DNA from: Xanthocytophaga agilis
GTDB lineage: Bacteria > Bacteroidota > Bacteroidia > Cytophagales > 172606-1
NCBI RefSeq assembly: GCF_030068605.1
Contig: NZ_JASJOU010000018.1
Location: 1 to 64,000, forward strand
DNA: 64,000 nucleotides
Direction of reading: 5' to 3'
The notes beneath the pieces are model-generated. The model worked only from the letters and a program-made list of their open reading frames with translations. It was not told the origin of the DNA and did no database searches. Positions 27,959 to 47,217 of the stretch are shown here, in pieces. Position numbers and translations under genes: made by a program. Each line of letters starts with the position of its first letter. Positions within the stretch are counted from its first letter, which is position 1.

Positions 27959-28609
27959 TTACAGACGCATCGTCTGTAATAAATGAACATATTGCATCAG
28001 TTGATCTGAGCCATCGATACCTATCTTCCGGATGATATTGCTTTTGTGATTTTTGACAGTATGATAGCTTTTATTTATTTTACTGGTCAGTTGTCTGTTG
28101 GACAGGCCTCTTGAAAAAAGGTACAAAATCTTGATTTCTACATAACTTAAGGATAAAAAGGAACATAAGTCATTGGGTAAGGCAGGCTCATTGTATTGAA
28201 TAAAATTGCTAAGATAAAATTGGTTGGCTCTTCGTCTCCTGCTGGCTGCTATATCGTTTAATAATTCATTGACAGAAAATACGCCTGTGACCTTGTGTTT
28301 TTTTAAAAAATGAATGCCTTCATCACTGATCGAGTTGCTGATAAAGGCTATTTGCAACCTTTTGGCAAGCTGTAACATAATATAAAGCACTTCTAGAAAA
28401 TTATGTCTGGGAAAATTGCATTTAACAGTTACCAGATTGGAGGGATTAAGGCTGCTCAAGTAGTGATTTATATCTTGATAATAATTCACTCTCATATCGA
28501 AAACAGGTAAATCTTCGTCATCAAAATCGAGAATGACAAAATTGTTTCTAAGCTCGGTAATCACTTTTAATGGACGGTTTGTCATCAGAGTATCAATAGC
28601 GGGCAACAT
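27959..28609 (-). CDS. LuxR-type helix-turn-helix regulator with degenerate receiver-like N-terminus
   Basis: A 216-residue protein. The C-terminal 65 residues are a LuxR/GerE helix-turn-helix (LSYVEIKILYLFSRGLSNRQL, YHTVKNHKSNIIRKIG). The N-terminal 130 residues alternate hydrophobic strands and helices like a response-regulator receiver (FVILDFDDED, LQIAFISN, KHKVTGVFSVNELLNDI), but a clear phospho-acceptor Asp pattern is not evident, so it may be an atypical receiver. It is the last minus-strand gene of the peptide/export block, 463 bp beyond the second permease, and may be its regulator or an unrelated neighbour. Confidence 0.8.
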   Translation of the reverse strand: MLPAIDTLMTNRPLKVITELRNNFVILDFDDEDLPVFDMRVNYYQDINHYLSSLNPSNLVTVKCNFPRHNFLEVLYIMLQLAKRLQIAFISNSISDEGIHFLKKHKVTGVFSVNELLNDIAASRRRRANQFYLSNFIQYNEPALPNDLCSFLSLSYVEIKILYLFSRGLSNRQLTSKINKSYHTVKNHKSNIIRKIGIDGSDQLMQYVHLLQTMRL

Positions 28610-29072
28610 ATAATTTTACATTAGGTAAGGGTTATAAAATCTTGATAAATAATGGTAATTAAAAAAGTGTAAAATTATTTCTAAGGCCTGAAATTCAGCT
28701 AAGTATCTTTACCATAACCGAACAAACCTGTGCTAGTAACATTTGACCGCTAGCAAAGAATGAGGCCATATTACTCCAAATGGAGCTTTGAGAAACTACT
28801 GAACGTCTTGTTAGTAGTAAATTAGTAGTAAAGCGGTTCTTACTACGCTACTTATGCGGTATTTTCCAACTCAAATATGGAATCGAATTGACGATGACAG
28901 AATAATAGCAGGAGATAATAGGATATAGTTTGTGCTCTCACGCTGCTTGTTTCAGTCCTTCTTAAAGAAAAGAAACCTTAGCAACCAGCCAATCTATCTC
29001 AATAAGATAACCCATTAAAACCAGTTGTTTGCTCTAAAAAATGGCATACACAGTATACTCTTGGTTGCGAGT
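28610..29072. other. Intergenic region, nothing recognised
   Basis: About 460 bp without a credible frame. It contains a short direct repeat, TTAGTAGTAAA, near 28812 and 28822. The promoter for the LuxR-type gene should be within 28610-28700. Confidence 0.4.
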
Positions 29073-30269
29073 CTAATTTTCCTTTAATGCCTCCACCACA
29101 GAAAGATTTGCGATGCGAAATCCAGGATAAGCAGAACAGCCAATAGCCAGCAGAAGTATCAGCACAATGGATGAGATGATGGCAAGCAGAAAGATAGAAG
29201 TGTTGATGTTAAACGCTCCCACAATAGGAAAAGGAAGGACAACTACAGCTCCTATCAAAAGACCTATTCCGCAAATGAGTATACTTTCCAAAACAATTTG
29301 CCTACCAATGCTTCCTTTGGTTGCACCAATAGCTCTGCGAAGTCCGATTTCCTGCTTCCGCTTGGAAACATCCAACCAAATCAGGCCTACTAATCCGATA
29401 ATTATGTTAATGATTAAATAGCTGGCAACAATGGCAAAAAAGAACAAGGGGATCAGCGAAAAAGTATTATTAGTCTTACGCTCCGAAAAGAAAGGTAGTA
29501 TTTTCACATTCTTCTTTGTCAAAAGGGCGGATAGGTCTTTTTTCAGATTTCCGATCTGGTTTATATCCGAATTAGTTTTGAGCAAAACGACACCTTCTTC
29601 TGTGATCTGCCGGCTTTTAAGCTGAGTTATAATCACCTCTGAATAGTCGCTAAAATCGTTAATGGTCTTGTAATTCTCCACTACTGCTGCCACCACTGCC
29701 AATTCATTGGCATTACCTAGGCTAACTTTTTTTCCGATAGGGGATTGTTCCGGAAATAATTTCTCTTTCAAGGTTTGGTTGATTGCCACTAAAGGCAAAG
29801 CATCTCCAAGTTTGTAATTATCAAACCACTCACCCTCCACAAGTTTTAATCCCAGTACATTCTGATAGTTCTTATCAGCTTCGTACCACAAAGCTGACAC
29901 CTGATTGGTATTGGTTTTGACAGTCAGCAGCGGGTGACCATTCTGATAAGGAATTGCTTGAGAAGAAAATGAAAACGCTCTAATTCCCTCAATGGATCGC
30001 AGGTAATTCTGTAATACAGTTTCCAGTATGGCCTCGTCTGCTGTAAAGTCGGTTTGCAAACTGTCAGCAGTTGGATATTCTCTGCTTGAAAAAGAAAGAA
30101 TATAAACATGCTGGCCATTCAATCCAATATCCTTTGCATAATTTTGAAGGTTGTTAAAAAGAATGGTCAGAACAGCAAAAGCAGCCATAAAACAGAAGAA
30201 AACCTCCACAACAATAAAATAAGTCTTCTTCCTTCTTGAAAGAATAAGTTTTAATAAGTGTCCGAACAT
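29073..30269 (-). CDS. FtsX/MacB-type ABC permease (second subunit)
   Basis: A 398-residue half-transporter permease: one N-terminal transmembrane helix (about 20-42), a large extracytoplasmic MacB-PCD-like domain (45-270), and three C-terminal helices (about 275-390). The FtsX motif ISKRKQEIGLRRAIGATKGSI-like stretch lies in the coupling loop (here SKRKQEIGLRRAIGATKG). It starts 10 bp after the other permease, which it resembles in architecture, so the pair probably forms a heterodimer with the MacB-like ATPase encoded just upstream. Such type VII ABC systems use mechanotransmission to drive periplasmic substrates through TolC. Confidence 0.9.
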   Translation of the reverse strand: MFGHLLKLILSRRKKTYFIVVEVFFCFMAAFAVLTILFNNLQNYAKDIGLNGQHVYILSFSSREYPTADSLQTDFTADEAILETVLQNYLRSIEGIRAFSFSSQAIPYQNGHPLLTVKTNTNQVSALWYEADKNYQNVLGLKLVEGEWFDNYKLGDALPLVAINQTLKEKLFPEQSPIGKKVSLGNANELAVVAAVVENYKTINDFSDYSEVIITQLKSRQITEEGVVLLKTNSDINQIGNLKKDLSALLTKKNVKILPFFSERKTNNTFSLIPLFFFAIVASYLIINIIIGLVGLIWLDVSKRKQEIGLRRAIGATKGSIGRQIVLESILICGIGLLIGAVVVLPFPIVGAFNINTSIFLLAIISSIVLILLLAIGCSAYPGFRIANLSVVEALKEN

Positions 30270-30278
30270 AGTATTGCC

Positions 30279-31553
30279 TTATTTATAATTATTGATCGCA
30301 TCAACCGGATTGATTTTGGACATTCTCCACGCTGGAATCACTCCAGATAAAAAACTGAACAAGAGGGTAAATAACATGCCCATCACTAATGCTATACAGT
30401 CTAGTTTGAGCAGTAGGTTATCAATTATCTGGCTGTAATTAAAAATGCCTATCAGAGCCAGTACCAGACAGATGCTCAGGCCAAAGCCAATAAAGTTTAA
30501 AACCATATTTTCAATCAGAAATTGAAAGAACAACTGTTGCCTTGTAGCCCCAAAGGAACGCCTTATTCCTATCTCTGACCATCTTTCCATGATTCTACTT
30601 GTATTGATATTTATCAGATTAAGGGCTGGCAAGAGCATGCAGAAAACAGAAAACAACACATAACAAAGTAAAAAAGTGTTCAACTCATCCTCTCGGTTGG
30701 GCCCGATCGATATACGGGTAAAACTTGATAAAAAATCATCTGCATAAATAAAAACCTTGTTGAAGCCTTGGTGATAGGCAGGAAGGTCTGATTCGATCAG
30801 GCCCTTTAACTTGTTAAATTCTTCCTCCATGGCCGTAAGTCCGTTGGCCTTTTGAGAATATAAAACAACATTATAATCTCCTATGAATGTACGGTCTTTG
30901 GCATCTCGCATATAGATCTCATCGGACGGATTAGCCAAACTTGAGTAGGGAATGTAGGCATCGGCCATTACGTAACGCTGAAAGATAGAAGCATCCTTGA
31001 CAAGACCAATGATACGAAATAGTTTTCCATTCAGATTGAGGGTTTGCCCTCTGACATCTGTTTTACCAAATATTTTTTGGGCCATTGCGCTGGCAAGCAC
31101 AATGACTGGCTCTTTGGCCAAGCACTGCTGGCGATTGAACTGGCTGCCCCACAGAAAGTTAAAATGATAAACATCCCAGAACTGTTCGTTGACAAACCGC
31201 ACAGCAAAAGTACTTTCCTGATTATTGGTAAAAACAGGCAGCGACTTGGGAGAGGAGATAATTGCTATTTGCTGGGGTTGTTTGAGTTTAGAAATGAAAT
31301 TATCAATTAGTGTAAGACTCAACCCTCCTGCTGAATAGTATCCTTTTTGCGTATTCATCACCTTTATTTTGGTAATATATAAACAAGCTCCCCGGTTGGT
31401 ATCCGGGTATGAAGGGTTAATGAAATTTTCAATTAAGGAGGTAAAAAAAACCAAAAAGGTCAGTGTGATTACGGTTCCAATCAAACTGATTGCAGTAAAG
31501 AAAAGATTTCTTTTCAACAGAATTATCGAAAATTTGAGATAGGTCTTCAGCAT
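30279..31553 (-). CDS. FtsX/MacB-type ABC permease (first subunit)
   Basis: A 424-residue permease with the same order: N-terminal helix (14-38), periplasmic domain with MacB-PCD character (FRIIGLVKDASIFQRYV), and three C-terminal helices with the FtsX loop ERWSEIGIRRSFGATRQQLF. The closing SGVIPAWRMSKINPVDAI matches the family end. Its start overlaps the ATPase stop by 7 nt, indicating translational coupling. MacB itself fuses ATPase and permease; here the parts are separate, as is common in Bacteroidota lantibiotic and peptide exporters. Confidence 0.9.
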   Translation of the reverse strand: MLKTYLKFSIILLKRNLFFTAISLIGTVITLTFLVFFTSLIENFINPSYPDTNRGACLYITKIKVMNTQKGYYSAGGLSLTLIDNFISKLKQPQQIAIISSPKSLPVFTNNQESTFAVRFVNEQFWDVYHFNFLWGSQFNRQQCLAKEPVIVLASAMAQKIFGKTDVRGQTLNLNGKLFRIIGLVKDASIFQRYVMADAYIPYSSLANPSDEIYMRDAKDRTFIGDYNVVLYSQKANGLTAMEEEFNKLKGLIESDLPAYHQGFNKVFIYADDFLSSFTRISIGPNREDELNTFLLCYVLFSVFCMLLPALNLININTSRIMERWSEIGIRRSFGATRQQLFFQFLIENMVLNFIGFGLSICLVLALIGIFNYSQIIDNLLLKLDCIALVMGMLFTLLFSFLSGVIPAWRMSKINPVDAINNYK

Positions 31554-32260
31554 AAGTGAGAGTCGTGGTAAGTACTGTTTTCTTCCAGAAAAGGCTTTTG
31601 GAGAATGATTCCATCTTTCATTCTTATGATGTAATCTGTTTTACCTGCAATGGAAGGATCGTGGGTAACCATCACAATAGTGATCTGATCAGTTGAATTC
31701 AATTGCTTTAAGAGCTCCATGATCTTTTCGCCCATTTCTGTATCCAGGTTTCCGGTAGGCTCATCTGCCAGAATTACCTCTGGATTACCCACCAAAGCCC
31801 GCGCAATAGCAACCCGTTGCCTCTGGCCTCCGGAAAGCTGGCTGGGCAGATGGTAGAGCCGATTGGTTAAACCCACTTTCTGCAAAGCAGCTTTGGCCAT
31901 TTCAATCCGCTGTTTAGTCTTTATATTGCGATAAATGAGTGGCAATTCCACATTGTCCAGCACCGGCAGGTCATGAATCAGGTGATAATTTTGAAACACA
32001 AATCCAAACTTGCGATTTCTTAATTGCGATAACTGCCTGTCACTCAAATGGGTAACAGACTGACCATCAACAAGCATCTCGCCATCGGTTGGCGTATCCA
32101 AAAGACCTATGGTATTGAGTAAGGTTGACTTACCACATCCGGACGGGCCCATGATGGAAATAAATTTGCCTTTTTCAACATGCAGATTGATTGCGTTCAA
32201 GGCCTTTGTCTGCAAATGTTCAGTCTGGTATATTTTGTTGACGTTTCGTAGTGTTATCAT
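31547..32260 (-). CDS. MacB/LolD-type ABC transporter ATPase
   Basis: A 237-residue ATPase with Walker [10 protein letters not shown] (residues 38-46), Q-loop at Gln90 ([12 protein letters not shown]), signature LSGGQ (142-146), Walker B VILADEP (162-168), and the His-switch in VTHDPS. The sequence is of the type that partners FtsX-like permeases. No C39 peptidase domain is present, so any leader removal must be done by another enzyme, for example the signal peptidase of this cluster. Coupled by overlap to the first permease. Confidence 0.93.
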
Positions 32261-32495
32261 TGTAGCCTTGTGTTGAATGTAGTTAAGCTTTCAGTATATA
32301 CTTTCATTATTTATGGGTGTTACTCTGCCTTGCCGGCGCTGTCGAGCTTGTATGAATGTACTATCTAGTTAACTTTCTCGAACAACCAGACGTCGGTTTA
32401 GTCCTTTTAGCCTTTCAAGCAGCAGCTTTCAAGTTAGAATTTTCAAGTTGGTGTTTTCAAGTATGCCCCGCTTCCCAATACAGGAGAACAAACCT

Positions 32496-34001
32496 CTAGG
32501 GCGTCCCTGCTTGCGGAGACTGTTTATCTTCCATGGTCAACATTTTAAGGTAATAGTATGAATACCAGTAGTTTCTCAATGCATTTACATAATCGCGACT
32601 ACCCTGATCCTTTTCCTGAGAGGCAATGCTGAATTCAAAGGTATTGATAGTGCCGAGCATAAACTTTTCTTTGGTAATCTCATACTTGTGTAAGGCTACT
32701 TGTTCAGCCTTTTTGCTCAACTGAATCTGTTGTTTGTACATTTTAAACAATGCGACATAGGTTGATATCTCTTGGACTAAAGAGAGCAGGTGTTGTTCAT
32801 TGGAATATTTGATTAATTCTTTATTTACCCGAGCCATGTTTATCTTCGCTTTTCCCCTACCCCAATCGATCAGGGGAATCGATAGGTCAAGGGAGACAAT
32901 CTGCTGGTTGAGTATATTACTATATAATTGGCCGAAGCTGGTAAAACTGTTTGATAATCCAAGATTGGCGTTTATGACTGCACTAAACCTACTTTCCCGG
33001 AGTGCTTTGTCATAACTCATGTCTGCCTCTTGTAACCTTCGTTTGGCTGTTACAAGATCGGAACGGTTTTCGAGTGCTTTCTGCAAAGTACGACTAGAAT
33101 CCATAGTAAAAGCTGAGTCCAGATCCGGTACTTGGAAACTAGTCTCCAAGTTTTCATTAAAACCCACAAATGAATTAAATGACTGAGTATTTATCTGAAG
33201 TTCACTTTTTGCTTGCAGATAGGCTTTTTCTGACTTAAGAATTTCCAGTTCAAGTTGTAATAGCTCATTTTTCGACACTTTACCCATATCAAATCGCAAA
33301 AGTGCCAGTTTATAAATATGCTTGTTGGTAGCCAAGTTGGCAAATGCCAGCTCTTTGTCTGCTTGCGAAAGCAGACAGGCGAAGAATTGTTCACAGGTTT
33401 TCAGACTTATATTTGCCAACGACTCCTGTAGTATCTTAGTATTTTCTTCGTATTTCAACGATTCAATTTTTTCATTCCACTTTAGGGCATTGAAGCCAAA
33501 AAGAGGTTGCTGTAAACCGATTCCAATGGGAATGCCAGTGAATATTCTTTTCCTGTTGTCATAATCTTCAAACATCTGTACCTGAGAGGTCAGGTAAACG
33601 GTTCCTCCGGTCTTTCTGATCACTTGGCTTAAATCCAACCGAACCTGGGAGTAATTGTTGCGTACAGCCCTGAATTCAATGTTTCCATCCGGCTGTACTA
33701 CCTGTTTGTAGCTCCGGCTAAAGGAAGGGAGCGTGCTTTGCAGCGTTAGCTGAGGTTTGTAATCGACCAGAAACGCTTTATACTGCCACTCAATGGTTCG
33801 TATATTTGTACTGATCTGCTGTGATGAAACCGATACAGTCTGGCTTTGGCGGATCGCTTCCTGTAAAGTAATCGAAGTCTGCGCGAAAGTAGCAAGTGTG
33901 GCGCTCAAGCATATGATAATTGTACTAATTCCCAGACCAAAGACCAAATCAAATAGTCTGGCAGTATTTATCCTTTGGTTGTTCATGTGGTTTATCAACA
34001 T
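32496..34001 (-). CDS. TolC-family outer-membrane efflux protein
   Basis: A 501-residue protein with an N-terminal signal segment (IIICLSATLATFAQTSITL) followed by the two long coiled-coil outer-membrane-efflux repeats. Repeat text begins with ITLQEAIRQSQTVSVSSQQIS and ends with alpha-barrel helices rich in Lys, Glu and Gln (ISTYVALFKMYKQQIQLSKKAEQ). It would form the trimeric exit duct. Its start overlaps the HlyD stop by one base, and the ATPase follows 235 bp on, so adaptor, duct and pump are one operon. Confidence 0.9.
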   Translation of the reverse strand: MLINHMNNQRINTARLFDLVFGLGISTIIICLSATLATFAQTSITLQEAIRQSQTVSVSSQQISTNIRTIEWQYKAFLVDYKPQLTLQSTLPSFSRSYKQVVQPDGNIEFRAVRNNYSQVRLDLSQVIRKTGGTVYLTSQVQMFEDYDNRKRIFTGIPIGIGLQQPLFGFNALKWNEKIESLKYEENTKILQESLANISLKTCEQFFACLLSQADKELAFANLATNKHIYKLALLRFDMGKVSKNELLQLELEILKSEKAYLQAKSELQINTQSFNSFVGFNENLETSFQVPDLDSAFTMDSSRTLQKALENRSDLVTAKRRLQEADMSYDKALRESRFSAVINANLGLSNSFTSFGQLYSNILNQQIVSLDLSIPLIDWGRGKAKINMARVNKELIKYSNEQHLLSLVQEISTYVALFKMYKQQIQLSKKAEQVALHKYEITKEKFMLGTINTFEFSIASQEKDQGSRDYVNALRNYWYSYYYLKMLTMEDKQSPQAGTP

Positions 34002-35251
34002 TAGTCAACTTTTATTTTTTCAGCCGTAGTTATCTCACTCAAATCGGTTAGAATAATTTCCTCATCAGGTTTCAGGCCGCTGAGTACTTCAATTGACTCG
34101 GTATCGGTCATTCCAAATGTAATCTTCCGTTTATAAGCCATTCCATTGCGGATAACATACAAGTCCTGTTCTTTGAATCCTTTGTAGAATACGCCTTTGG
34201 GAATAAGCAATGTATTGTTCTTAAAGGAAGTGATCAGGGATAACTCAACTTTCATGTTTGGCTTTAAAAATTGTAACTGTGTGTTTACGTTTTCTAGTGT
34301 TACTTCAAAATACAGTAACCCATTTTGAATGGCGGTCTGGACGCTAGTAATCCGCCCGGGTAAAGACCTATTTTGAATGGTGACATTGACCCCCATACCT
34401 GGTTTGACAGATGCTCCGAATGATTCGGACACCTTGCCCACTATTTTGAAGCTGGATATATCTGCCACTTTGGCTACCACATCTCCCGGCTTTACATTGC
34501 TGCCAATGCTTTTATTGATCCAGCTGACAACACCTTTGCGTGGTGAGATTACATCCAAACCCTGAATTTTGGACTCGTATTCGCTTATATCGGCTTGTTG
34601 CATTTTAGTGTTTATCACCGCCTCGTTCAATTCTTGCCTGAGTACGACTTCCTGGGTACGGATCTCGTTTTGTAACTTATGCGCTTCAATCTGGGCAATC
34701 TTTAATTTCAGTTCGGCCTGCTCTACTGTTTCCCGTGTATTTCCTCCTGCTTCAAATAATTTTTTTTCCGTGGTTAAAAAATTTCTGAGGTTACCTATGT
34801 CAAGCTTTTTGATCGAGTCCATCGCCCTCAAATCGTACATTTTCTTCCAAATCTCATACTGAAGCCGTTTAATTTTGTTTTGCTGCAGAGCAAGCTGGTC
34901 TTTCATTTTCTGGTAAGTTGCTTGCGTAGGTTCCTTTTCCAACACCATTAGGAGTTGACCCTCTTCTACTGACTTTCCGTCGTGGACCAGAACCTGTTCG
35001 ATCTTAGTCTGAACAGTACTGGTTAGCAGTTCTTCATATTCGGGCAGCACTTCCCCAAAACAATTGATGACATTTCTAATTGAGCCCATCGAAGCTTTTG
35101 CAGTCGAAAGGGTGGATAACTTTAACGAGGGGGTAAGCAGGCGAGTAGTCAGTACGATTGTAACAATCAGCACTGTTGCCATTGTGATCAGGTAAAAAAG
35201 TCGCTTTTTCTTTCTCTGTCTTTTTTGTTGGACTGCAATTTCAAAATCCAT
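34001..35251 (-). CDS. HlyD/MacA-type periplasmic adaptor protein
   Basis: A 416-residue membrane-fusion protein. An N-terminal membrane anchor (KKRLFYLITMATVLIVTIVL, about 15-35) precedes lipoyl-like halves with VLVHDGKSVEEGQLLMVLEK and VISPRKGVVSWINKSIGSNVKPGDVVAKV. Between them is a long coiled-coil hairpin (about 120-225), then beta-barrel and membrane-proximal domains (LYVIRNGMAYKRKITFG ... ILTDLSEI). It bridges the FtsX-type pump and the TolC-like duct encoded next. Probably first gene of the exporter operon. Confidence 0.92.
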   Translation of the reverse strand: MDFEIAVQQKRQRKKKRLFYLITMATVLIVTIVLTTRLLTPSLKLSTLSTAKASMGSIRNVINCFGEVLPEYEELLTSTVQTKIEQVLVHDGKSVEEGQLLMVLEKEPTQATYQKMKDQLALQQNKIKRLQYEIWKKMYDLRAMDSIKKLDIGNLRNFLTTEKKLFEAGGNTRETVEQAELKLKIAQIEAHKLQNEIRTQEVVLRQELNEAVINTKMQQADISEYESKIQGLDVISPRKGVVSWINKSIGSNVKPGDVVAKVADISSFKIVGKVSESFGASVKPGMGVNVTIQNRSLPGRITSVQTAIQNGLLYFEVTLENVNTQLQFLKPNMKVELSLITSFKNNTLLIPKGVFYKGFKEQDLYVIRNGMAYKRKITFGMTDTESIEVLSGLKPDEEIILTDLSEITTAEKIKVD

Positions 35252-35738
35252 AGCTGAAATGATTGTAATGGAGCTTGTTGTGATAAAGATTGTGATAGGA
35301 AATCTTTCTGCTGTAACTGTCTGTTGAGCCTAACGGGTGACCATTCGCCCTGGTAATCAGCATAGTAGCTAATCTGTAACTCAATTGAGTTATACTGGAA
35401 CAAAGGTGCTTTTAAAAAATACTGGGATGTAAAAAATGTGATAGACCTCATTTAAAAGTGATTAAACCGCAAATTTTGGGATGAATACGGTAGAATACAC
35501 TTGTTCTAATAATAAGATCTAAGATAAAAAGGATGCTGAAAAGTTGGAAAAAGCACCTGAACAGCATTATCTTCCATGCATACTAATATCATCCAAGGGT
35601 ACCTTCACAGGATTGAATGGGTACAATTACAGCCAGACAATGAAAACATTGATGAGAACATGGATCAATCCATGTACAACTCAACACAAAAGGCAGCGCT
35701 CATTGCCAAAAGATCATGGATTAGGCATGTTGGTCAAC
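35252..35738. other. Intergenic region between adaptor and kinase genes
   Basis: Several short frames on both strands, none protein-like. It separates the kinase gene from the exporter genes, so the exporter may have its own promoter here. Confidence 0.4.
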
Positions 35739-36767
35739 TCATGCATCAAACTCGACTAGAAGCTCGACCACGAATTCGTTTTCATTTTGGTCAATCTGCA
35801 ATCTGTGCTTGTGATGATACAACAGTTGAAGTCGTTTTCTGACATTTTCAAGCCCTACTCCCGATTCCTGTCTCAGATCTTTCTTTTGACTGGAATGGAT
35901 ACTGTTTTTTACCAGCAACCTTAACGAATTGTCCTGGCAGTGCAAAAGGATATGTATCCAGGAAACATGCTGATAGCTGATTCCATGTTTGAAGGCATTT
36001 TCAACAAAAGGGATAATCAACATCGGCGCTATCCGTTGGGGGCAATGGGAAGCTGGAAGATCGGTTGTAATTGAAATACCGACATAAGGGCTCAGTCGCA
36101 GGGTCTGGATTTGGATATAATTTTTTAGATAGTCCAATTCACGTTCCAGTGGAATATAGTCAGAGAGGTTGTCATGAAGCATAAATCGCATTATATCTCC
36201 CAGCTTTTGGATGCCTTCTGCTACTCGTAAACTATTATCCTGTAAGGCTACACTGTATAGGTTATTTAAAATATTGAATAGAAAATGTGGATTTAACTGC
36301 GCCTTCAACAAAACAAGTTCAGCGTTTTTCTTTTCAATCCGTTCCAATAATTGCATGCGTAGTTCACTAGAGGAAAAACCCTTCCAGGCAAGAAAAGGGA
36401 TTAAACTCAGAGAGATTACACTGTGGAACAACCATAGTAGCCATGGATTAACAGACGGTTCACCGTTTATAAAGATGACAGACCCGATTCCGGTCATCAG
36501 AATGGAAAAAATGCAATAAATCCATAGGCTTTTTGTTAAAGACTTATAGGAGTAGAAACGAGGAAGGATCTCATACCTAAGACCAGTATAGCAAACAAAC
36601 AGTAAAGGGATGGAGACAACCAATACTCCCCCCAACGGTTTAGGAATCGGGACGTGCATAGTATCTAGGATGAACAAACCACCCCCCCATAAAACCAAAA
36701 ACATTGTAAACTCCTGAAGAAAGTAGACAGATAAATATCTTTTTATAAGCTGATGAAGGAAGGACAT
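35739..36767 (-). CDS. LytS-type sensor histidine kinase
   Basis: A 342-residue kinase with four hydrophobic segments in the first 130 residues, then a short coiled linker and the His_kinase domain (AQLNPHFLFNILNNLYS, phospho-acceptor His161). The ATPase domain shows the N-box PFVENAFKHG and the G-box SGVGLENVRKRLQLLY. It lacks a large external sensor domain, typical of kinases that detect peptides or membrane stress through their membrane helices. Its natural partner is the LytTR regulator transcribed divergently at 37534, 767 bp away. Confidence 0.9.
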   Translation of the reverse strand: MSFLHQLIKRYLSVYFLQEFTMFLVLWGGGLFILDTMHVPIPKPLGGVLVVSIPLLFVCYTGLRYEILPRFYSYKSLTKSLWIYCIFSILMTGIGSVIFINGEPSVNPWLLWLFHSVISLSLIPFLAWKGFSSSELRMQLLERIEKKNAELVLLKAQLNPHFLFNILNNLYSVALQDNSLRVAEGIQKLGDIMRFMLHDNLSDYIPLERELDYLKNYIQIQTLRLSPYVGISITTDLPASHCPQRIAPMLIIPFVENAFKHGISYQHVSWIHILLHCQDNSLRLLVKNSIHSSQKKDLRQESGVGLENVRKRLQLLYHHKHRLQIDQNENEFVVELLVEFDA

Positions 36768-39153: not shown

Positions 39154-39376
39154 TTTGTATAAATGTTTTTTTATAAGGTGAAACAGGACTTAATTTAAAC
39201 AGACATTAATTTAAGAAAGTAGCTTTTTCTTTTTCCAGTGTTTGCAGCCAGGAGATTGCACCAGTTGTGACCAGCCAGCAGTAGTGAATGTTTAGGCGGT
39301 AAATTTTAGCATAAGGAAAAATGTCATGCATCCAAGCCATACTTCTGTTGGCTGGGTTTGGGACACGAGTTTAAAA

Positions 39377-40765
39377 TTAGTTTAGGTACCCCAGTTCACT
39401 GTTTACAATGTTTAAAATTGTCTGCTCAGTGTATCGCTGCCGAGTACGTTCCTGCAATCGGCTAATATTATCCCGATAACTGGGATTGGTTAACAGATCA
39501 TTGATTTTATCTTTGATTATCTGTCTGGTATCTTTGTGTAAGCATCCACGCAAGCCAATTTTGTGATGAACCACCCGGGCTGCGTTCCCTGGCTGATCAT
39601 AGTTTGGATTTACCGGATATACAATCATCGGAACACAGAAATGGATACTTTCTTTGATTGAGTTGAGTCCTCCGTGGGTAATAAAGACAGATGCCTTGGG
39701 TAAGACATAGGTTTGAGGTACATAGTCGAAGATCGCTACATTGGAGGTAGGTGCAGCCGTATGGTTGAACAATCCGCTGATAATAAACTGAACCGAGTCA
39801 AATGCTGTACTAACGTCAATAATCCTGCTTATAAACTCACTAAGCATCTGCCGCTGTTTTTGGTAGAGTGTCCCAAAAGAGATATATACAAATGTTAATG
39901 GTTGATTGAGTAGATGGACCAGCCGCGCAATGTCATTCTTATTTATCTGTTCCTGCCGGTTCAATGCTATCTGAGATCCCAGATAAATTCTGTCGTTCTC
40001 CCGAGACAGCCTGCTGACTGACCGGGTAGTAAATACCCTGCGTAACGGACTCGTATAAGGTTGAAATTCCATTTCCTGTGGACAAAGAATCAATTCCTTC
40101 ACATGTGTAAAACCGATACCAAGTGGCAATTGGTCAATGAGTTTATACTTTGCGGGTATGGCTAGCTGACGAGCTTGTCTGCGGACAATTTGCCGGGTAG
40201 TGTTTCCAACCAACAATATCTTTTCCTTCAATTCCCTTAATGAATCCTTAACAAGGAACAGATACCACTCAAACCAGGTGTTCAGTTTTTGATCAGGCAG
40301 GCGATCGCTCTGTGGCAAAGGCAAATAAGGCAGATAGCTTGCCAACATGGTATTAAGAAGAAAGAATTTGGTACAGGTATTTTTAATGCAGGGATAAATA
40401 TTGACAAAGTCAGATCCTATAAAAGAATCTAGAAAAATAATTTCAGGCTCTAATCTTTCGATCAGTTCATTGAGTAACTGCTTACGCAGCTTATACTCAT
40501 TGTGACTGATTCTGTTCAGGATTACATCTTTTTTATTTTTCCCAAAGCGCTTGAGGTAGTTGACTTCATCGACAAAGCTTAAATTGGGACAACAGTTTGC
40601 CAGTTTGACTATTTCAAATCCTTGCTTTTCAACATACAAGTCAAGAGCTGGATCTACCCCACCTGTTAGGTAAATTTTGTAATGTTGTTGAAGAATTTTG
40701 GCAATTCCTAATATTGCATTAATATGACCTTTGGCCGGAAAGGTGATAAACAATATTTTTTTCAT
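39377..40765 (-). CDS. UGT/MGT-type glycosyltransferase (GT1, GT-B fold)
   Basis: A 462-residue GT1 enzyme. The N-terminal acceptor domain starts KKILFITFPAKGHINAILGIAK with the conserved GH; the C-terminal donor domain has the UGT signature around residue 360 (FITHGGLNSIKESIHFCVPMIVYPVNPNYDQPGNAARV). Bacterial members glycosylate lipophilic small molecules such as macrolides, carotenoids or flavonoids and sometimes inactivate antibiotics. In the middle of a peptide cluster it may decorate the product or provide self-protection. Neither is demonstrated. Confidence 0.9.
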   Translation of the reverse strand: MKKILFITFPAKGHINAILGIAKILQQHYKIYLTGGVDPALDLYVEKQGFEIVKLANCCPNLSFVDEVNYLKRFGKNKKDVILNRISHNEYKLRKQLLNELIERLEPEIIFLDSFIGSDFVNIYPCIKNTCTKFFLLNTMLASYLPYLPLPQSDRLPDQKLNTWFEWYLFLVKDSLRELKEKILLVGNTTRQIVRRQARQLAIPAKYKLIDQLPLGIGFTHVKELILCPQEMEFQPYTSPLRRVFTTRSVSRLSRENDRIYLGSQIALNRQEQINKNDIARLVHLLNQPLTFVYISFGTLYQKQRQMLSEFISRIIDVSTAFDSVQFIISGLFNHTAAPTSNVAIFDYVPQTYVLPKASVFITHGGLNSIKESIHFCVPMIVYPVNPNYDQPGNAARVVHHKIGLRGCLHKDTRQIIKDKINDLLTNPSYRDNISRLQERTRQRYTEQTILNIVNSELGYLN

Positions 40766-41012
40766 AGATACAAACAGGTAAACTACGGTATAGGGATGGA
40801 ACGATTTTAAGTTGTGGCAGACAAAACAAGAAGCTTCATCTGCCCCCTTTCATCAAAACAGGTAGATTACATGTTTTGGGTAAAAATTCAGATGAAAATA
40901 AATTGATAAAAGTGCTAACGGGTAATTTCTCTTAGCGTAATATAAGCCTTTAGTAAAAAGGAATTATCCTACCATTAGTAAGTTACCGAGCTGGTCATGT
41001 TGCTAATTCACA

Positions 41013-42128
41013 TTACTGGATCATCTGACCTATTCGTTTGTAGCGAGTATTTCCTTGCTGATTATCTTTTGACCACCAGATCAGGGTTGCTTTGCCAATA
41101 ATGTGGTCTTCTGGCACAAAACCCCAGAACCTTGAATCATATGATACACCGCGATTATCACCCAGTACAAAATAATAGTTCTTTTTAAAAGTATACTTAA
41201 CGGTTTCTCCCTTAATCAGAACTCTTTCACTGATTGTCCTGGCAAGCTGGATAGCAACAGAATCCGAGCTTTCCTGCTGCGAACCTGTGATTTGCTCATA
41301 TTCTTTGAGCAAAGGGAGGTAGGTATGAATGGTTTGCTTGTTTATCCATACCTGCTTTCCTGCTTTTGGAATCTGTACAGGTCCGAAAAAATCCATATTC
41401 CATTCCTGTCCGGGTACGTGAGGATAGATGTTCAGGTCTGCAAAGTCTTTTGTTGCGATTAACTCCTGACAGCTTTTTACAAAAGGAAGAGTTTGAATTT
41501 TGCCTATCCATGCCGGGTTTATCCGAAGTATATAGCAAATCGAATCGATTGACAATACATTTTTCTCCAACATCATTTGTGAATAAAAATTCTCAAAAAC
41601 GATTCCACCCATCATCGATTCGGTTAACAATTGAGTACTGATCAGCCGATAGGTTTTAAGCATTTTATCTGGCAAAGCGATAAGTTTGTCGTTGACAACT
41701 AACTTGCCTGCATTGATATGAATCACATCGCCTGGTAGACCTACGCACCTTTTGATGTAGGGAGTTTTAAGATCAAAAGGTTTGTCTTCTACTGGTATGT
41801 TGAAAGCAATCACATCTCCGTGTTGCACCTGATTAAACCCTTGCAGGCGGATGTAGGGCAAATGAAAAAGGGTAGAATACATTTTGATTTTTTGAAAGGT
41901 ATTGTTTACATCCTGAAAAGGGATTTTCAGGACAGTGGACGGCATCCGTGGGCCATAACTAAGTTTGGAGACCAATACATAATCACCTACCAGCAACTCT
42001 CCCTCCATTGAATCACTGGTTATTTTAAAACTGTCGAAGAAAAAAATCCTGAAGATGAATACAAACAGGATCGAAAAAAAGGTAGTTTTAATTAAGGGTT
42101 GCATTGTGCGAAAGGTTAATAATTTCAT
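41013..42128 (-). CDS. lepB: Signal peptidase I, Bacteroidota long form
   Basis: A 371-residue type I leader peptidase. One transmembrane helix (about 12-31) is followed by box B ITSDSMEG with catalytic Ser40 and box [12 protein letters not shown] with catalytic Lys126. A long insertion (about 150-310), typical of Bacteroidota homologues, precedes box [19 protein letters not shown]. All catalytic residues are present. Bacteria usually carry a housekeeping copy elsewhere; its location among peptide, oxygenase and transferase genes suggests a copy dedicated to trimming the signal-like leaders of the 72-residue peptides, since the exporter ATPase lacks a peptidase domain. Confidence 0.9.
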
Positions 42129-42427
42129 TTTAGTTGCTACAGACAGATCGGCAGTATGTAGAGCCGTGTTCTTACCTCAGCGATCTTATCTCGGTGAATG
42201 GCACTCTCATTACAGAAGCAGTTAGGGAACCGCAGGTATTGCATAGTTGCGTGTTATCCTCCTATACGCTATTAATTTTAGTTATTTTAATACTTTTGTT
42301 TGCTTATCACTCTTGACAGACCCAAGTTCTTGACCAGACGCTTACAGATCGGGCTGTATTTTTGATTGCTCATGATGACTTTATTTCTGCTTCTGTGCCA
42401 ATGGCTTATACTCATACTAGCTACTTA

Positions 42428-43309
42428 TCAATCCACTCTTGTCAGAAGCTGATCAGAAGCAGCCGGATACAACTTTCCATATTCCTCCCTTAGAATTTGT
42501 GAAAACTGCTCCATTAGTAAAACAAGCTTAGTGCTTTGTCCAACATTGTAACTTTTCAGAAGCGTATGTGATAACTGAGCCTGATCCGGATAATACCGGG
42601 CGAACAGGCTTTGGCAAAGGGTTATATTACGGGTATAGCATTTTTCCCGTTCCAAGACTAATTCCTGAGCACTTCGCAGTAAATGTTTGATTACATGGTT
42701 AAAAATAATCTGCTGATTAAAGTCGGCTTGCATACGATCCATTTGAGTAGCCATCGCCAGCTTTTGTGGCAGATTATGTAATAGAAAAATACAATCTTTG
42801 TTGGGTTTGAACCTAGTAAAACCCTTCTCAATCGGTTCTCCATAAACCCGCATGGAAAGCACTGAAACAACAAACTGTAAATATCTATTATTTGCTATTG
42901 CTGACTCATTGATCACATAGGTATCAAAATATTTGATGAACGGGTATTTGTGTTGAAGCGAATTGTTTATATAGGCAAATACTTTTTGTAAATCGATAGC
43001 AACAAAGTCTTTCAAAACTACCACTGTATCAAAATCCGTTTTACCCTTTACCTCACCGTTCAGATGAGACCCTCTCAGGTATACGCTTATCACTGCATCC
43101 TTCCACAGGATTGTGTACTGTTTTACCAAATCGTCGATTATTATTCGTGTTACCGTAGGAAGGGGACGGTTGATACTGTGAAAAAATCCATCAGTGCCCA
43201 CTAAAAAAAAATCATTTGGATGTGTTTGCTGCAAAGAATCAGAATTTGATGACGAGTCATTATCAATTTGCAAACTGTTACTGGGTTGATGGCCGCTATA
43301 ATAGAACAT
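42428..43309 (-). CDS. Pol-beta-type nucleotidyltransferase
   Basis: A 293-residue protein. Residues 70-100 carry the nucleotidyltransferase signature: GSHLNGEVKGKTDFDTVVVL gives Gly80-Ser81, Gly85 and metal-binding Asp92 and Asp94. A further strand acid is not assigned. The C-terminal half is helical, as in aminoglycoside adenylyltransferases and standalone MNT-type enzymes. It would transfer a nucleotide to a small molecule, peptide or protein. The N-terminal 35 residues are low-complexity and Ser/Asn/Gln-rich. It lies between the oxygenase and the signal peptidase. Confidence 0.78.
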   Translation of the reverse strand: MFYYSGHQPSNSLQIDNDSSSNSDSLQQTHPNDFFLVGTDGFFHSINRPLPTVTRIIIDDLVKQYTILWKDAVISVYLRGSHLNGEVKGKTDFDTVVVLKDFVAIDLQKVFAYINNSLQHKYPFIKYFDTYVINESAIANNRYLQFVVSVLSMRVYGEPIEKGFTRFKPNKDCIFLLHNLPQKLAMATQMDRMQADFNQQIIFNHVIKHLLRSAQELVLEREKCYTRNITLCQSLFARYYPDQAQLSHTLLKSYNVGQSTKLVLLMEQFSQILREEYGKLYPAASDQLLTRVD

Positions 43310-43442
43310 AGATTACATAATGCAGATAGTAAAACAGATAGTAAATACAAGGAAAGAAAAAGAATCGATCAGCTCACCGGCCATACGTATACCGGCTTAA
43401 GTCAGTGACTTGCACTGACTAATCGGCAATGAAGGATTGGTT

Positions 43443-44585
43443 TTATTTGGTCGTGATCTGGATCAGGCTTTTATTGGCAAGTCGTTTGGAGAGATACTTG
43501 AAACTTTCCAAAGGAATATCTTCAAAAAGCACAGGAAGATCAGTGGAGGGATTATCCAGCAAACGCCGCATGAAGTCTTCCTCTTCTCCTTTTCTGACCG
43601 AAGAGGGAATGTCTTTTCCCAGTGGGTGGATTTGAAAATGATTCAAATCAGTTTGGGTTTGCACACTGTCTAACAACAACAGGTGGTTGAACATATCTTT
43701 GGTATCTGCAAATTTTGAGTCTGTATAGTTTTCCTCAGATCTGGTAGTAAGCATCTCCCTGAGTGCGGTTGCCATCTGGGCAATCAACTCTTCTTTGTTT
43801 ACAGCAGAGCCATTGGTCTGATTAAAATCAAAGAAAGGTTCCCGAAAATAAGCAATTGACTCCACCTTTTGGATTAGTTGCTGAACAATATCCGTTCTAA
43901 GAATGGGATGAAAACCCAGCGTAATGTGGATGGAAGGCTCTTTCTGGGTGAAAGCATCATGGACAACACCTCTGGGAACGTAAAGAATATCCCCTTCCTG
44001 CAACGTTATCTGGTGATCGGCCTGCCTGGTCAGATAAGCCTGCTTTTGTTCGGGGGTTAACTTTTGCCCCTTTAAGGGTGCGGGTATGGGCAGATCATAA
44101 ATATTCCACTCCTTACTACCATAAAGCTGAATAACCATCACCTCGTGGGCATCCAGGTGAGGGTCAAACCCCCTCGAACCGGCAGGGGTAATATAAATAT
44201 TGGCATGCACTTCCATCCGCAGTTCCTTTTCAAGCTGATAAATAAATCGGTTCAGATTTGTAAAATGGAATTGAGCAGCCTGGATAACAATTGTGTTGCC
44301 TTGCTCGAATAGTTCAAATACCTTGGTCTTGTTCAAAAAATTGAACTGGCTCGTCTGATTGGCCAGCTGGTACTTTTTGATGTCTAATTCTGCACCATTG
44401 CCTACCATACGAACAAACGGATAGGCAATAGCAGGTGCGCTCAGATAGTCGTTGATCTGGTTGACATTTACTATCTGATCGGCAAACTCGGACGGCTTGG
44501 AGATAAATAAGGGGGTTTTTCTCCAGTAGTTTGCCGCAAAGTCCTCAACCGTTACCGGGGCGATCAGTTTTTCAAAAGTTTCCAT
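43443..44585 (-). CDS. JmjC/cupin-type 2-oxoglutarate oxygenase (ROX-like)
   Basis: A 380-residue protein. Residues about 95-230 form a double-stranded beta helix with iron ligands His143 and Asp145 in DPHLDAHEV and distal His209 in VPRGVVHDAF, plus Lys158 in YGSKEW positioned for 2-oxoglutarate. The N-terminal PVTVEDFAANYWRKTPLFI is characteristic of the cupin-4/ROX group, which hydroxylates ribosomal-protein side chains (Arg or His) in bacteria and humans. The C-terminal helices and winged-helix-like part are also as expected. A member inside a peptide cluster suggests hydroxylation of the small peptides; a ribosomal substrate remains possible. Confidence 0.88.
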   Translation of the reverse strand: METFEKLIAPVTVEDFAANYWRKTPLFISKPSEFADQIVNVNQINDYLSAPAIAYPFVRMVGNGAELDIKKYQLANQTSQFNFLNKTKVFELFEQGNTIVIQAAQFHFTNLNRFIYQLEKELRMEVHANIYITPAGSRGFDPHLDAHEVMVIQLYGSKEWNIYDLPIPAPLKGQKLTPEQKQAYLTRQADHQITLQEGDILYVPRGVVHDAFTQKEPSIHITLGFHPILRTDIVQQLIQKVESIAYFREPFFDFNQTNGSAVNKEELIAQMATALREMLTTRSEENYTDSKFADTKDMFNHLLLLDSVQTQTDLNHFQIHPLGKDIPSSVRKGEEEDFMRRLLDNPSTDLPVLFEDIPLESFKYLSKRLANKSLIQITTK

Positions 44586-44701
44586 ACTAAATTAATTGAG
44601 AGTGGCTGTTAAATAATCGCTAAAGTGATGATTGTTGTTTGTAGTTCCCATAGGGATATTTTCTAATAGGTATTTCAGACAGATTGCTGACTTGCAGACA
44701 T

Positions 44702-45178
44702 TTAGATCTGATCCAAATTTGCGTAGACCTGTTCTCCTCCTCTGGGATTTATTTCATGGATTGCTTGTACATTTCCTTCATCCAGAAAAATAACTTTGGG
44801 AAATGTCGATACGAAAGGTTCCCGATTGAAGGCCTGAACATAATCGACAAATACATCCTGGTTAATCAGGGCCTGTTCGCCAAGTCGTATGCGGGCGGTC
44901 TTTTTGGACTTGTGTCCGGTGACGATAAAGAGTATCCCTTTTCGATTCCTTGGCAAATAGTTGTTCAGCAGGTAGTTTTCCGCTCCGTTAATACAGCCAT
45001 CACAGCCCTGAGAGGGAACAAAAAAAACGGCACGGTATCCTGACAGATTTTTCCCTGTCAGTTGGGTCACCTGCCTGATCAAATCATAATCAGCATTGGA
45101 TTGGGAACAGCCAGCCAGCAGGGCGGTAGTCAAAAGGGATAGGTACACTTTAAGGTATATTTTTATCTTGGCATTCAT
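44702..45178 (-). CDS. CxxC lipoprotein, thioredoxin-like
   Basis: A 158-residue lipoprotein: signal peptide with lipobox LLAGC (lipidated Cys24), then a thioredoxin-like strand leading to SQGCDGCINGAENYLL with Cys59 and Cys62. The C-terminal part (VSTFPKVIFLDEGNVQAIHE) contains a Pro-bearing strand like the cis-Pro loop of thioredoxin folds. Localised to the inner or outer membrane facing the periplasm, it could form or isomerise disulfides in the four-cysteine peptides encoded upstream. It starts 15 bp after the propeller-type gene stop, so the two are co-transcribed. Confidence 0.75.
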   Translation of the reverse strand: MNAKIKIYLKVYLSLLTTALLAGCSQSNADYDLIRQVTQLTGKNLSGYRAVFFVPSQGCDGCINGAENYLLNNYLPRNRKGILFIVTGHKSKKTARIRLGEQALINQDVFVDYVQAFNREPFVSTFPKVIFLDEGNVQAIHEINPRGGEQVYANLDQI

Positions 45179-45193
45179 AAGAGTACAGTCAAG

Positions 45194-46441
45194 TTAGATT
45201 TGGGTTTTTGAGATTGTTTTCGGTTGTTTTAAAGCACGCAACTCAAAACGTTGAAATACCAGGTGGTTATCTGTTTCAAGCTTTTTCAACAGGTACAATC
45301 CATCCCTGTCAACAAAAAAGTTATTTGCATCATAATTGCTCTGGGGCAATAGAATCTCACCAATTTTGTCAAAGTGGCGGTTCAGAATTATGATAGATTT
45401 CTGCTTGTGACTGTACAGAGGCTGAGAGCGATCAAATTGTTTGGCAGCCAATTCGGCGAACCGATAATACACATGGCGATATGGATCGAAAATAACCGAT
45501 GTATAGCAGGGTGTTTTAAAATAATATTCAATCTTTGTCAGCTTGTCCAGAAACTCATAATAGATGGGCGAGTAATCCATTGATTTGATGTGCGGGATAT
45601 ATCTGCTTGCCGCATAATGTTTCTCTATTTGTCCATTTTGGGTATTGTAGGCAGTCAGAAAAGGATCAGCCATAAAGCTGATGATCAACAGGCTTTTTTC
45701 GGAATTCTGGTCATAAAATATCTGTCTGAGTCCACCTCCCCCCCCCCAGTTTCCTCCCCAATAAAACGTGGGGTAATGAACAAGCCGATCTACTGTTCCG
45801 CTCTGGTAATTAAATCTTACTATATTGTTTCTGACCTTATCACTACCAAACATCCCCCCCTCATTGGAGAAGTTACCAGCCAGATATAACTCTGATTTGG
45901 TTTTATCCCATAAAATAGGACGGTTGGTAAATGGACTGGGCCATACACTCTGTTGTCCCAGGTTAACTTTATCAACCATGTCACGGCTCATGAGTTTTCC
46001 CTTAAGAATGCTGATAAGAGACAATGTGGAGCTTTTGTAATCATAGACAAAAACAGAATCTTCATTAAGGATCGAGTAGCCCTGAATCCGATCTCCCTTT
46101 TTAAAACCAAATTGTTCCAGTGATAAAACTTTTATCAGATTACCTCCTGCCAGATCATAATAGTAGATCATCCTGTTCTCCCGATTCAGGAAAGTTAGAT
46201 ACTTTTTTCCCGAAATATGGCTGTGAAAGACCTGATAGTAGTCGATTGCCTCAGGTACAGTTAAGCTATCGAGCTTCCAGATTCGCGATTGAGCAATCGT
46301 CAATGTGACCGAATCAGTCACATTGACAGCAGGAGCCAGCACTAGAATGGGCTCAGCCTTAACCCCATACCAATAGATAACTGCTGACAGTAAGCACACG
46401 CCTGATAAGGTGAATATGAATGATTTTAATAAACGATTCAT
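45194..46441 (-). CDS. Membrane-anchored DUF4221-like beta-propeller protein
   Basis: About 415 residues from Met at 46441 (the frame is open seven codons further). One N-terminal membrane anchor (about 8-28) is followed by repeated four-strand units typical of a six-bladed beta-propeller (KKYLTFLNRENRMIYYYDL, SILNEDSVFVYDYKSSTL, VYYRFAELAAKQFD). The overall look is that of the DUF4221 group of Bacteroidota envelope proteins. A Gly-rich loop (GGNWGGGGGLRQ) lies mid-protein. In Bacteroides, propeller lipoproteins are often encoded beside tiny secreted Cys-containing peptides, as here; their role is unknown. Confidence 0.7.
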   Translation of the reverse strand: MNRLLKSFIFTLSGVCLLSAVIYWYGVKAEPILVLAPAVNVTDSVTLTIAQSRIWKLDSLTVPEAIDYYQVFHSHISGKKYLTFLNRENRMIYYYDLAGGNLIKVLSLEQFGFKKGDRIQGYSILNEDSVFVYDYKSSTLSLISILKGKLMSRDMVDKVNLGQQSVWPSPFTNRPILWDKTKSELYLAGNFSNEGGMFGSDKVRNNIVRFNYQSGTVDRLVHYPTFYWGGNWGGGGGLRQIFYDQNSEKSLLIISFMADPFLTAYNTQNGQIEKHYAASRYIPHIKSMDYSPIYYEFLDKLTKIEYYFKTPCYTSVIFDPYRHVYYRFAELAAKQFDRSQPLYSHKQKSIIILNRHFDKIGEILLPQSNYDANNFFVDRDGLYLLKKLETDNHLVFQRFELRALKQPKTISKTQI

Positions 46442-46591
46442 GCTTTGAGGATTTTGGTACAACTATTTTTTCGCTCTCACACCAATCATTCCGACTCTGA
46501 TCTACTGTCGAAGGGATGGTTTAGTTTAAATCTGTCTTTGAAATTGAGCTGTAATTAAACAGCTAAGTGCTGAGGAATCGTCCTATTTGTT

Positions 46592-46662
46592 CCAGTCAGA
46601 AAACTCAACAGAATAACCATCAACCTTTCAAACTTTAGTTTTACGATGGTTATTCTGACTGG
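46592..46662 (-). other. Interrupted 18-bp hairpin after the peptide genes
   Basis: GATGGTTATTCTGACTGG at 46645-46662 pairs with a split left arm: CCAGTCAGA at 46592-46600 and AGAATAACCATC at 46610-46621. A 12-nt insertion in the left arm duplicates part of it. It follows the second peptide stop by 20 bp. No U-run is present, so a processing or attenuating stem between precursor and downstream genes is more likely than a full terminator. Confidence 0.6.
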
Positions 46663-46681
46663 ATTGGTAATAAGTCAGGAG

Positions 46682-46900
46682 CTATTGACAGTCCCCACCC
46701 CACCAAGCTTTCATACAATGCTCATTACCCGACACAGCTGATTCACAATCTCCACCTGTTCCGGATGAGCAGTATGAGTAACTTTTCGAATCGTCGGGCA
46801 AAAGTGCGCCGGTAGTGGCAATAGCAAATCCGACTACCATTTGCAGTTTCTGAACCTTAGGGTTTCTGGCAGCAGCTTTAAACTTTTGAAGTATTGTCAT
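46682..46900 (-). CDS. Cys-rich precursor-like peptide, copy 2
   Basis: A 72-residue peptide. Residues 1-20 are basic, 21-34 hydrophobic (MVVGFAIATTGALL), together a signal-like leader; a type I cleavage near residues 30-35 is plausible. Residues 42-72 form the variable part, with four Cys in the pattern C-SSGT-GGDC and C-MKAWW-GGDC separated by ESAVSGNEH. Two Trp lie in the last module. The first 41 codons are identical in DNA to copy 1, whereas the C-terminal 31 codons differ at 11 residues. All Cys, both GGDC motifs and GNE are kept. No radical-SAM or lanthionine synthase gene is nearby, so disulfide, hydroxyl or sugar modifications are more likely. Family not recognised. Confidence 0.75.
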   Translation of the reverse strand: MTILQKFKAAARNPKVQKLQMVVGFAIATTGALLPDDSKSYSYCSSGTGGDCESAVSGNEHCMKAWWGGDCQ

Positions 46901-47217
46901 ATTTGTGGTTAATTTTTGGATGAAAAAAATGTTGAAAGTAGATAGAATTGAAGGCGTGTTTCCGAAAGTCTATTGACAGTCTCCTCCAAACCAAGCTTTT
47001 TCACATACTTCATTTCCCCGCGTTGTCCATTCACAGTCTCCACCCGAACCATAATTGCAATAATTGTAACTTTTCGAATCGTCGGGCAAAAGTGCGCCGG
47101 TAGTGGCAATAGCAAATCCGACTACCATTTGCAGTTTCTGAACCTTAGGGTTTCTGGCAGCAGCTTTAAACTTTTGAAGTATTGTCATATTTGTGGTTAA
47201 TTTTTGGATGAAAAAAA
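46778..47217. repeat. 152-bp identical direct repeat covering leader and 5' UTR of both peptide genes
   Basis: 46778-46929 is identical to 47066-47217, at an offset of 288 bp. It covers about 29 bp upstream of each ATG and codons 1-41. Identity ends precisely at codon 41 (Tyr) and the remaining codons diverge. This suggests recent duplication or gene conversion restricted to the leader. Confidence 0.92.
46970..47188 (-). CDS. Cys-rich precursor-like peptide, copy 1
   Basis: A 72-residue paralogue of the next gene. The open frame extends 16 codons upstream, but the Met at 47188 matches the only possible start of copy 2 and lies within the duplicated sequence, so it is chosen. The leader is identical to copy 2; the C-terminal part reads C-NYGS-GGDC, EWTTRGNEV, C-EKAWF-GGDC-Q. 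The two modules within each peptide resemble each other (C-x4-5-GGDC plus Glu/Gln), suggesting an internal duplication. First gene of the minus-strand block; its promoter should lie in 47219-47400, but no consensus element was evident. Confidence 0.75.
   Translation of the reverse strand: MTILQKFKAAARNPKVQKLQMVVGFAIATTGALLPDDSKSYNYCNYGSGGDCEWTTRGNEVCEKAWFGGDCQ

Follow-up and report, generated by a model that had tools for sequence, protein, structure and literature searches.

A gene cluster of Xanthocytophaga agilis as a possible elaboration of a recurrent peptide-propeller-lipoprotein module of Bacteroidota

The stretch of DNA analyzed here (the window) comprises positions 1 to 64,000 of contig NZ_JASJOU010000018.1 of Xanthocytophaga agilis (C18 of a 9.77-Mb genome; genomes, contigs and loci are denoted by G, C and L handles), and contains a gene cluster, headed by genes for two small Cys-rich peptides, PepA and PepB, that may direct the maturation and release of these peptides. 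Every gene listed for this region in an earlier note on the sequence was recovered by open reading frame (ORF) lists together with Pfam and NCBIfam scans. On the minus strand, a block of peptide and enzyme genes (PepA to GT2, 38380 to 47188) consists of PepA (46970 to 47188), its tandem paralogue PepB (46682 to 46900), a DUF4221 beta-propeller (45194 to 46462; Pfam score of 56.9 bits against a cut-off of 23.4), a thioredoxin-like CxxC lipoprotein (44702 to 45178), a JmjC protein of the 2-oxoglutarate/Fe oxygenase family (43443 to 44585; JmjC_2, 93.1 bits), a nucleotidyltransferase-fold protein (NTase, 42428 to 43309; NTP_transf_2-like, 19.8 bits, slightly under the cut-off of 21), signal peptidase I (SPI, 41013 to 42128; Peptidase_S26, 142.8 bits), a UDPGT-like family 1 glycosyltransferase (GT1, 39377 to 40765; UDPGT, 52.2 bits) and a family 2 glycosyltransferase (GT2, 38380 to 39153; 28.5 bits), with intergenic gaps of up to 299 bp. 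A kinase/exporter block on the same strand (29073 to 36767) begins with a LytS-type histidine kinase (35739 to 36767; His_kinase, 80.5 bits) and continues, as classified by Pfam scan, with a HlyD periplasmic adaptor (34001 to 35251), a TolC-type outer-membrane factor (OEP, 32496 to 34001), a MacB-type ATPase of 237 amino acids (31547 to 32260; ABC_tran, without a C39 peptidase domain) and two MacB_PCD/FtsX permeases (30279 to 31553 and 29073 to 30269). The exporter block resembles an operon in that the HlyD and TolC genes overlap by 1 base and the ATPase and first permease genes by 7 bases. A LuxR-type helix-turn-helix regulator (27959 to 28609, minus strand; Pfam scan) is a candidate member of the cluster. 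The earlier note had placed the upper end at 47217 and all genes on one strand; PepA in fact begins at the ATG at 47188, and a LytTR response regulator missing from its list (37534 to 38214; Pfam scan) lies on the plus strand between GT2 and the LytS-type kinase, divergent to the latter, and therefore divides the run into the two blocks described.

PepA is a predicted precursor of 72 amino acids, with a 41-residue leader that includes a hydrophobic segment and a four-Cys core (C-x7-C followed by C-x8-C, each ending in GGDC). PepB, also of 72 amino acids, is 85% identical to it and differs in the core, with four Cys at equal spacing. The DNA of the two genes shows 0 differences in the 123 nucleotides of codons 1 to 41 and 33 differences in the remaining 96 nucleotides, where 11 codons carry a change of sense and 7 a silent one (dN 0.30 and dS 1.74 for the core, codons 43 to 72). 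Because the leader DNA is identical and the cores differ, the leaders have either stayed identical or been homogenized, and the two different cores have endured; PepA and PepB thus appear to be two distinct products, both maintained. The peptide occurs twice in its own genome, as PepA and PepB. Scans with Pfam and NCBIfam at E ≤ 1 returned zero matches for either, and their assignment to the NVEALA family was ruled out for lack of a PF14055 match at that threshold.

To place these genes in a wider context, DNA was fetched around many, though not all, propeller matches. A strict count covered 45 loci, including the window, and 63 distinct propellers (9 at edges or short were dropped; identical copies were counted once). 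A peptide was registered where a small ORF with a hydrophobic leader (called by a simple hydropathy rule, not a signal-peptide predictor) and at least 3 Cys lay no more than 250 bp upstream of the propeller, and the other ORFs of at least 250 amino acids in the same loci served as controls. Such a peptide was found at 32 of 63 propellers and at 20 of 321 controls (P = 3.7 × 10−16), four being the commonest number of Cys (17 of 32 peptides); a first count, admitting at least 2 Cys and including edges, had given 32 of 46 propellers and 31 of 210 controls. The CxxC lipoprotein stood downstream of 29 of the 63 propellers. Both partners were found at 21, the lipoprotein alone at 8, the peptide alone at 11 and neither at 23, and the peptide was more frequent at lipoprotein-bearing (21/29) than at lipoprotein-free propellers (11/34; P = 0.002). 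All 30 matches of the lipoprotein model in 64 loci (43 with and 21 without a propeller) adjoined a propeller, the model having been trained on part of the loci in which it was counted. Beyond the class, propeller and lipoprotein also occur together in the genomes G321, G456 and G496, where the hydropathy rule finds no peptide, and in G422 a DUF4221 propeller is flanked by NVEALA peptides (PF14055, E = 2.8 × 10−14); PF14055 matched 2 of 17 scanned peptides, and its matches in G422 are the two peptides of locus L205. A small Cys-rich peptide with a hydrophobic leader, a DUF4221 propeller and a CxxC lipoprotein therefore constitute a well-supported recurrent module. The module is apparently new to description: a literature search found nothing naming DUF4221 or NVEALA, a search on combined terms at the level of titles and listings returned nothing recognizable as the module, and the accessible part of a survey of Bacteroidetes gene clusters (PMC9248904) names no such arrangement.

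Among the loci examined, L054 (G058:C72) carries a tandem array of peptide-propeller-CxxC cassettes with differing peptide cores, three of them followed by a GT1. At L248, L249 and L250, propellers (four in tandem at L248) occur without peptide or lipoprotein and with conserved neighbors alongside; DUF4221 proteins are put to another use there.

The propeller of the window is given a TTG start at 46462 in the ORF list, an ATG seven codons further in being likelier; its N terminus is an apparent membrane anchor with no canonical lipobox, and the protein is thus probably membrane-anchored. A profile of 17 propeller sequences matches a DUF4221 protein of known structure (PDB 3s9j, E = 8 × 10−63). 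The lipoprotein fits no Pfam family, and a scan of database genome contigs with its sequence yielded no relative. Its profile matches a thioredoxin (8t4c, E = 6 × 10−6) and DsbC (4fyb, E = 0.007) in the PDB, with the Cys pair aligned in both cases, in a match list that also includes non-thioredoxins. The Cys pair is invariant in 25 of 25 aligned sequences (CxxC in 22, CxC in 3), and with the lipobox these features indicate a relative of the thioredoxins. Two further genes can be attached to the module as probable members. Besides the SPI of the cluster, the genome encodes just one other (at G000:C1). Of 12 further genomes examined, two carry an extra SPI in the peptide locus: in G222 it lies 6 kb from the propeller, and in G422 it stands among the NVEALA genes. 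GT1 is 30 to 34% identical to GT1s in the peptide-propeller cassettes of G058 and G135, and of the 29 propellers with a lipoprotein, 5 have a GT1 of this kind no more than 1 kb away (three in G058, two in G135), as against 0 of the 34 without; the window's own GT1, more than 1 kb from its propeller, falls outside this count. JmjC, NTase, GT2 and the exporter are possible further members.

We read the cluster, with a probability of about 0.5, as an elaborated form of a Bacteroidota secreted-peptide module whose products are tailored, exported by Sec, disulfide-bonded and released by a pump. PepA and PepB would be synthesized with a common leader, and core residues would be hydroxylated by JmjC and glycosylated by GT1 (perhaps also by GT2) in the cytoplasm. 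Passage through Sec would be directed by the hydrophobic segment of the leader, which the cluster's own SPI would then remove. In the periplasm, the CxxC lipoprotein would form or correct the two disulfides, and the folded peptide would be bound by the propeller, as its carrier or immunity protein, until loaded and released outside by the HlyD-TolC-MacB/FtsX pump under the control of LytS and LytTR. The outcome would be two peptides, each disulfide-bonded and probably glycosylated, with other bacteria as their target. We infer all of these chemical steps, together with their order, the export route and the activity. As a parallel for Sec export after cytoplasmic tailoring, ribosomally synthesized and post-translationally modified peptides (RiPPs) carried on a secretion signal are described as RiPP-lipoprotein hybrids in PMC12636315.

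Several observations weigh against this reading, the first of which concern the peptides and the module itself. No convincing relative of the peptides was found in the other seven genomes of the family (best E = 0.07), and PepA and PepB are therefore tied to the module by position and composition. They have a long n-region of about 20 residues, and an Ala-x-Ala|Gln site is not evident in them, unlike in several cassette peptides; the Q-rule describes an enrichment for Gln following SPI sites in Bacteroidetes (PMC5837995), and a Gln-type site can be recognized by eye in some cassette peptides, though not clearly in PepA or PepB. The module genes are patchy in distribution (propeller relatives in 24 of 194 genomes of the order; PF13970 at E ≤ 1 × 10−10 in 14 of 345 genomes of the phylum, its own included), the 23 propellers with neither partner belong to the same count, the lipoprotein model shares training loci with its test, and a single-sequence AlphaFold model of the lipoprotein (pLDDT of 37) gave no structural support.

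A second group of such observations concerns the tailoring enzymes. Outside the window, no peptide-propeller locus was seen to contain JmjC, NTase or GT2, and within the order the NTase was found at convincing E-values in 1 of 194 genomes, its own. Six more distant GT1 matches lie in five other genomes (395 searched) and in no such module, and the idea that this kind of GT1 is exclusive to the module was rejected on account of these occurrences. In two metagenome-assembled genomes of Xanthobacteraceae (L144, 9889 to 11937, and L126, 3539 to 5658), TonB-receptor genes adjoin a JmjC gene paired with an NTase like that of the window, the NTase directly following JmjC in L144 and overlapping the JmjC ORF in L126; the proteobacterial locus L113 has JmjC with a TonB-receptor gene and no NTase match. 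Such pairs would fit a JmjC-NTase unit that modifies something other than peptides and stands in the cluster by chance, and MINA and NO66, two ribosomal oxygenases, are likewise among the matches of the JmjC profile. We nevertheless judge this explanation rather improbable, given that JmjC comes immediately after the three genes of the peptide module and that its Bacteroidota relatives keep RiPP company: a scan of genome contigs returned 164 JmjC relatives, and among the best 80 of these all eight loci with a Bacteroidota name, inspected for RiPP context, have RiPP features. These are NHLP leaders at L129 (under the cut-off), L143, L154, L162 and L173, a pinensin leader at L105, lasso proteins at L167 and FlmA-family peptides at L142, and two of the eight belong to a single genome of the family, where one falls in a cluster of the pinensin type and the other in an NHLP cluster. 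At L142 (9983 to 13513, Ohtaekwangia koreensis), three tandem JmjC genes precede two FlmA-family RiPP precursors; in the accessible text of PMC12703449, the ohk precursors of strain DSM 25262 are reported as substrates of a peptide arginase, and JmjC is not named there.

No class-defining RiPP enzyme (LanB/C/M, radical SAM, YcaO, ATP-grasp, lasso cyclase or MNIO) emerged from Pfam scans that covered the two peptides, the remaining 15 genes of the cluster and 13 window genes outside it. The earlier note's statement that known RiPP core enzymes are missing thus stands for the genes scanned, while its corollary, a chemistry outside the described classes, went too far, since such JmjC proteins accompany RiPPs of the NHLP, pinensin, lasso and FlmA types. 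It had also named, as a finding that would count against the proposal, peptide genes recurring without any of the enzymes or exporter; position-equivalent peptides do recur without JmjC, NTase and GT2, yet they do so with the propeller and lipoprotein.

The remaining counter-evidence bears on the exporter. The plus-strand LytTR gene breaks the gene run. Diverged paralogues of the exporter operon (26 to 59% identical) are present without propeller or CxxC matches in five genomes of the family, its own included (G000:C10, G006:C33, G003:C331, G004:C136 and G005:C1), several with an adjoining response regulator. These features, together with the abundance of MacB-FtsX proteins (64 matches in its own genome) and the presence of unrelated genes within the same 34-kb stretch, are what would be expected of two mere neighbors joined in a variable island: a peptide module (38380 to 47188) and an unremarkable efflux pump of the MacB type that has a LytS/LytTR pair to itself (29073 to 38214). 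We consider such a juxtaposition somewhat unlikely, because pumps are enriched beside DUF4221 propellers. In nine genomes, picked after RND-like genes had been noticed in some of their loci, RND pumps (PF00873) lie no more than 10 kb from 8 of 15 propeller clusters (0.75 expected, P = 1.4 × 10−7), and in the fetched loci, some of which share a contig, an RND model built from five propeller loci had matches in 16 of the 43 loci with a propeller and in none of the 21 remaining Bacteroidota loci. The linkage is alike at loci with (9/22) and without (7/21) the lipoprotein, and it concerns RND pumps rather than MacB, both of which tell against the proposed role of the window's pump; MacB/HlyD/TolC-type genes do stand beside a propeller at L242, albeit without peptide or lipoprotein. 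Of the earlier proposal that all genes act as one pathway, the parts that hold up are the peptide-propeller-CxxC unit, GT1, SPI (2/12), the RND enrichment and the RiPP context of JmjC; the action of JmjC, NTase and GT2 on the peptides and the membership of the MacB block are hypothetical.

The function of the peptides may also be read differently, as signals or structural surface peptides like the uncharacterized NVEALA proteins, with the propeller as receptor, LytS and LytTR as the response and no antibacterial activity. NVEALA peptides do lie in a similar neighborhood, one of their loci (L240, 1 to 10147) combines LytTR- and LytS-type genes, HlyD and RND with an NVEALA peptide, and the window cluster itself has one kinase and two regulators. 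On the other hand, divergent cores behind an identical leader, as well as multi-cassette arrays, would suggest competition peptides, and a glycosyltransferase and an oxygenase would be unusual for a signal; a signaling or surface role is, in our estimate, doubtful.

The likeness to the NVEALA (PF14055)/DUF4221 (PF13970) loci (L205 and L238, G422) lies in small Cys-containing peptides with a hydrophobic leader, an adjoining DUF4221 propeller and an SPI in the same contig stretch (L239). In contrast to those loci, the peptides of the window have no PF14055 match, and no homologue of JmjC, NTase, GT1 or GT2 is labeled in the NVEALA loci seen. Glycocin gene sets comprise a glycosyltransferase, a thiol-disulfide protein, an exporter and a small peptide whose Cys are even in number, all of which have counterparts in the window. 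Unlike in glycocins, the exporter of the window lacks a C39 peptidase (Pfam scan), the leader is hydrophobic and Sec-like, JmjC and a propeller are added, and the two glycosyltransferases have no shown relation to glycocin enzymes; a phmmer search of the PDB with GT2 gave no match at E ≤ 1. With the JmjC-containing RiPP clusters of Bacteroidota (NHLP, pinensin, lasso and FlmA), the window shares a JmjC of the same family (27 to 34% identical) near precursor peptides, but these clusters are marked by class enzymes, by precursors of known families or by C39/NHLM exporters, none of which was found among the window genes scanned. The pump is of the MacAB-TolC tripartite type, with adaptor, outer-membrane factor and, as separate proteins, MacB-type ATPase and permeases. 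MacAB-TolC exports STII, a Sec-delivered, disulfide-bonded peptide, from the periplasm, as described in PMC5985334; unlike in that system, the ATPase and two FtsX permeases of the window are separate genes, and the link to a peptide is one of proximity alone.

The cluster and the recurrent propeller-lipoprotein pair point to an unstudied family of secreted peptides. More broadly, and tentatively, the module may represent an undescribed class of secreted peptides with a scattered distribution in Bacteroidota, with disulfide-rich precursors on Sec leaders, maturation by a propeller and a thioredoxin-like lipoprotein and release by RND or MacB pumps, of which the window would hold a hydroxylated, glycosylated form made without a known RiPP class enzyme. 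The module offers a testable meaning for two named, unexplained families (NVEALA and DUF4221), and its combination of small Cys peptide, propeller and CxxC lipoprotein is a genomic handle for Bacteroidota secreted peptides that searches based on known RiPP enzymes would miss. If the interpretation is true, modified peptides would exit through Sec and then a pump loaded from the periplasm, rather than through a C39 exporter.

Matches to a Bacteroidota-type promoter pattern were not above chance. Between PepB and the propeller, a hairpin can be folded on the minus strand (46560 to 46684; minimum free energy of −31.2, z = −2.5), with 3 of 200 shuffled sequences equally or more stable; it may be an attenuator or processing site, a suggestive indication only. 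The whole cluster lies inside a 34.4-kb stretch (18458 to 52902, without strand) that is missing from the sister genome, where window positions 18457 and 52903 fall within about 50 bp of each other (G006:C13, L254). The stretch, with the cluster and its neighbors, was either gained here or lost in the sister; window sequence left of 15829 has no match in the sister contig either. Separate scans of the two junction regions found no direct repeat family near 52700 to 53000. The same stretch holds a SusC/SusD-FecR-sigma set (18713 to 26033), a NUMOD4 gene (49131 to 50339) and a HipA-like protein (50715 to 52044) that is split into HipA_C and HipA N-terminal ORFs with an 8-bp overlap. The interval from 47300 to 49100 is poor in ORFs, and pieces of it resemble sequences on C15, another contig of this genome, possibly as the remains of an old mobile element.

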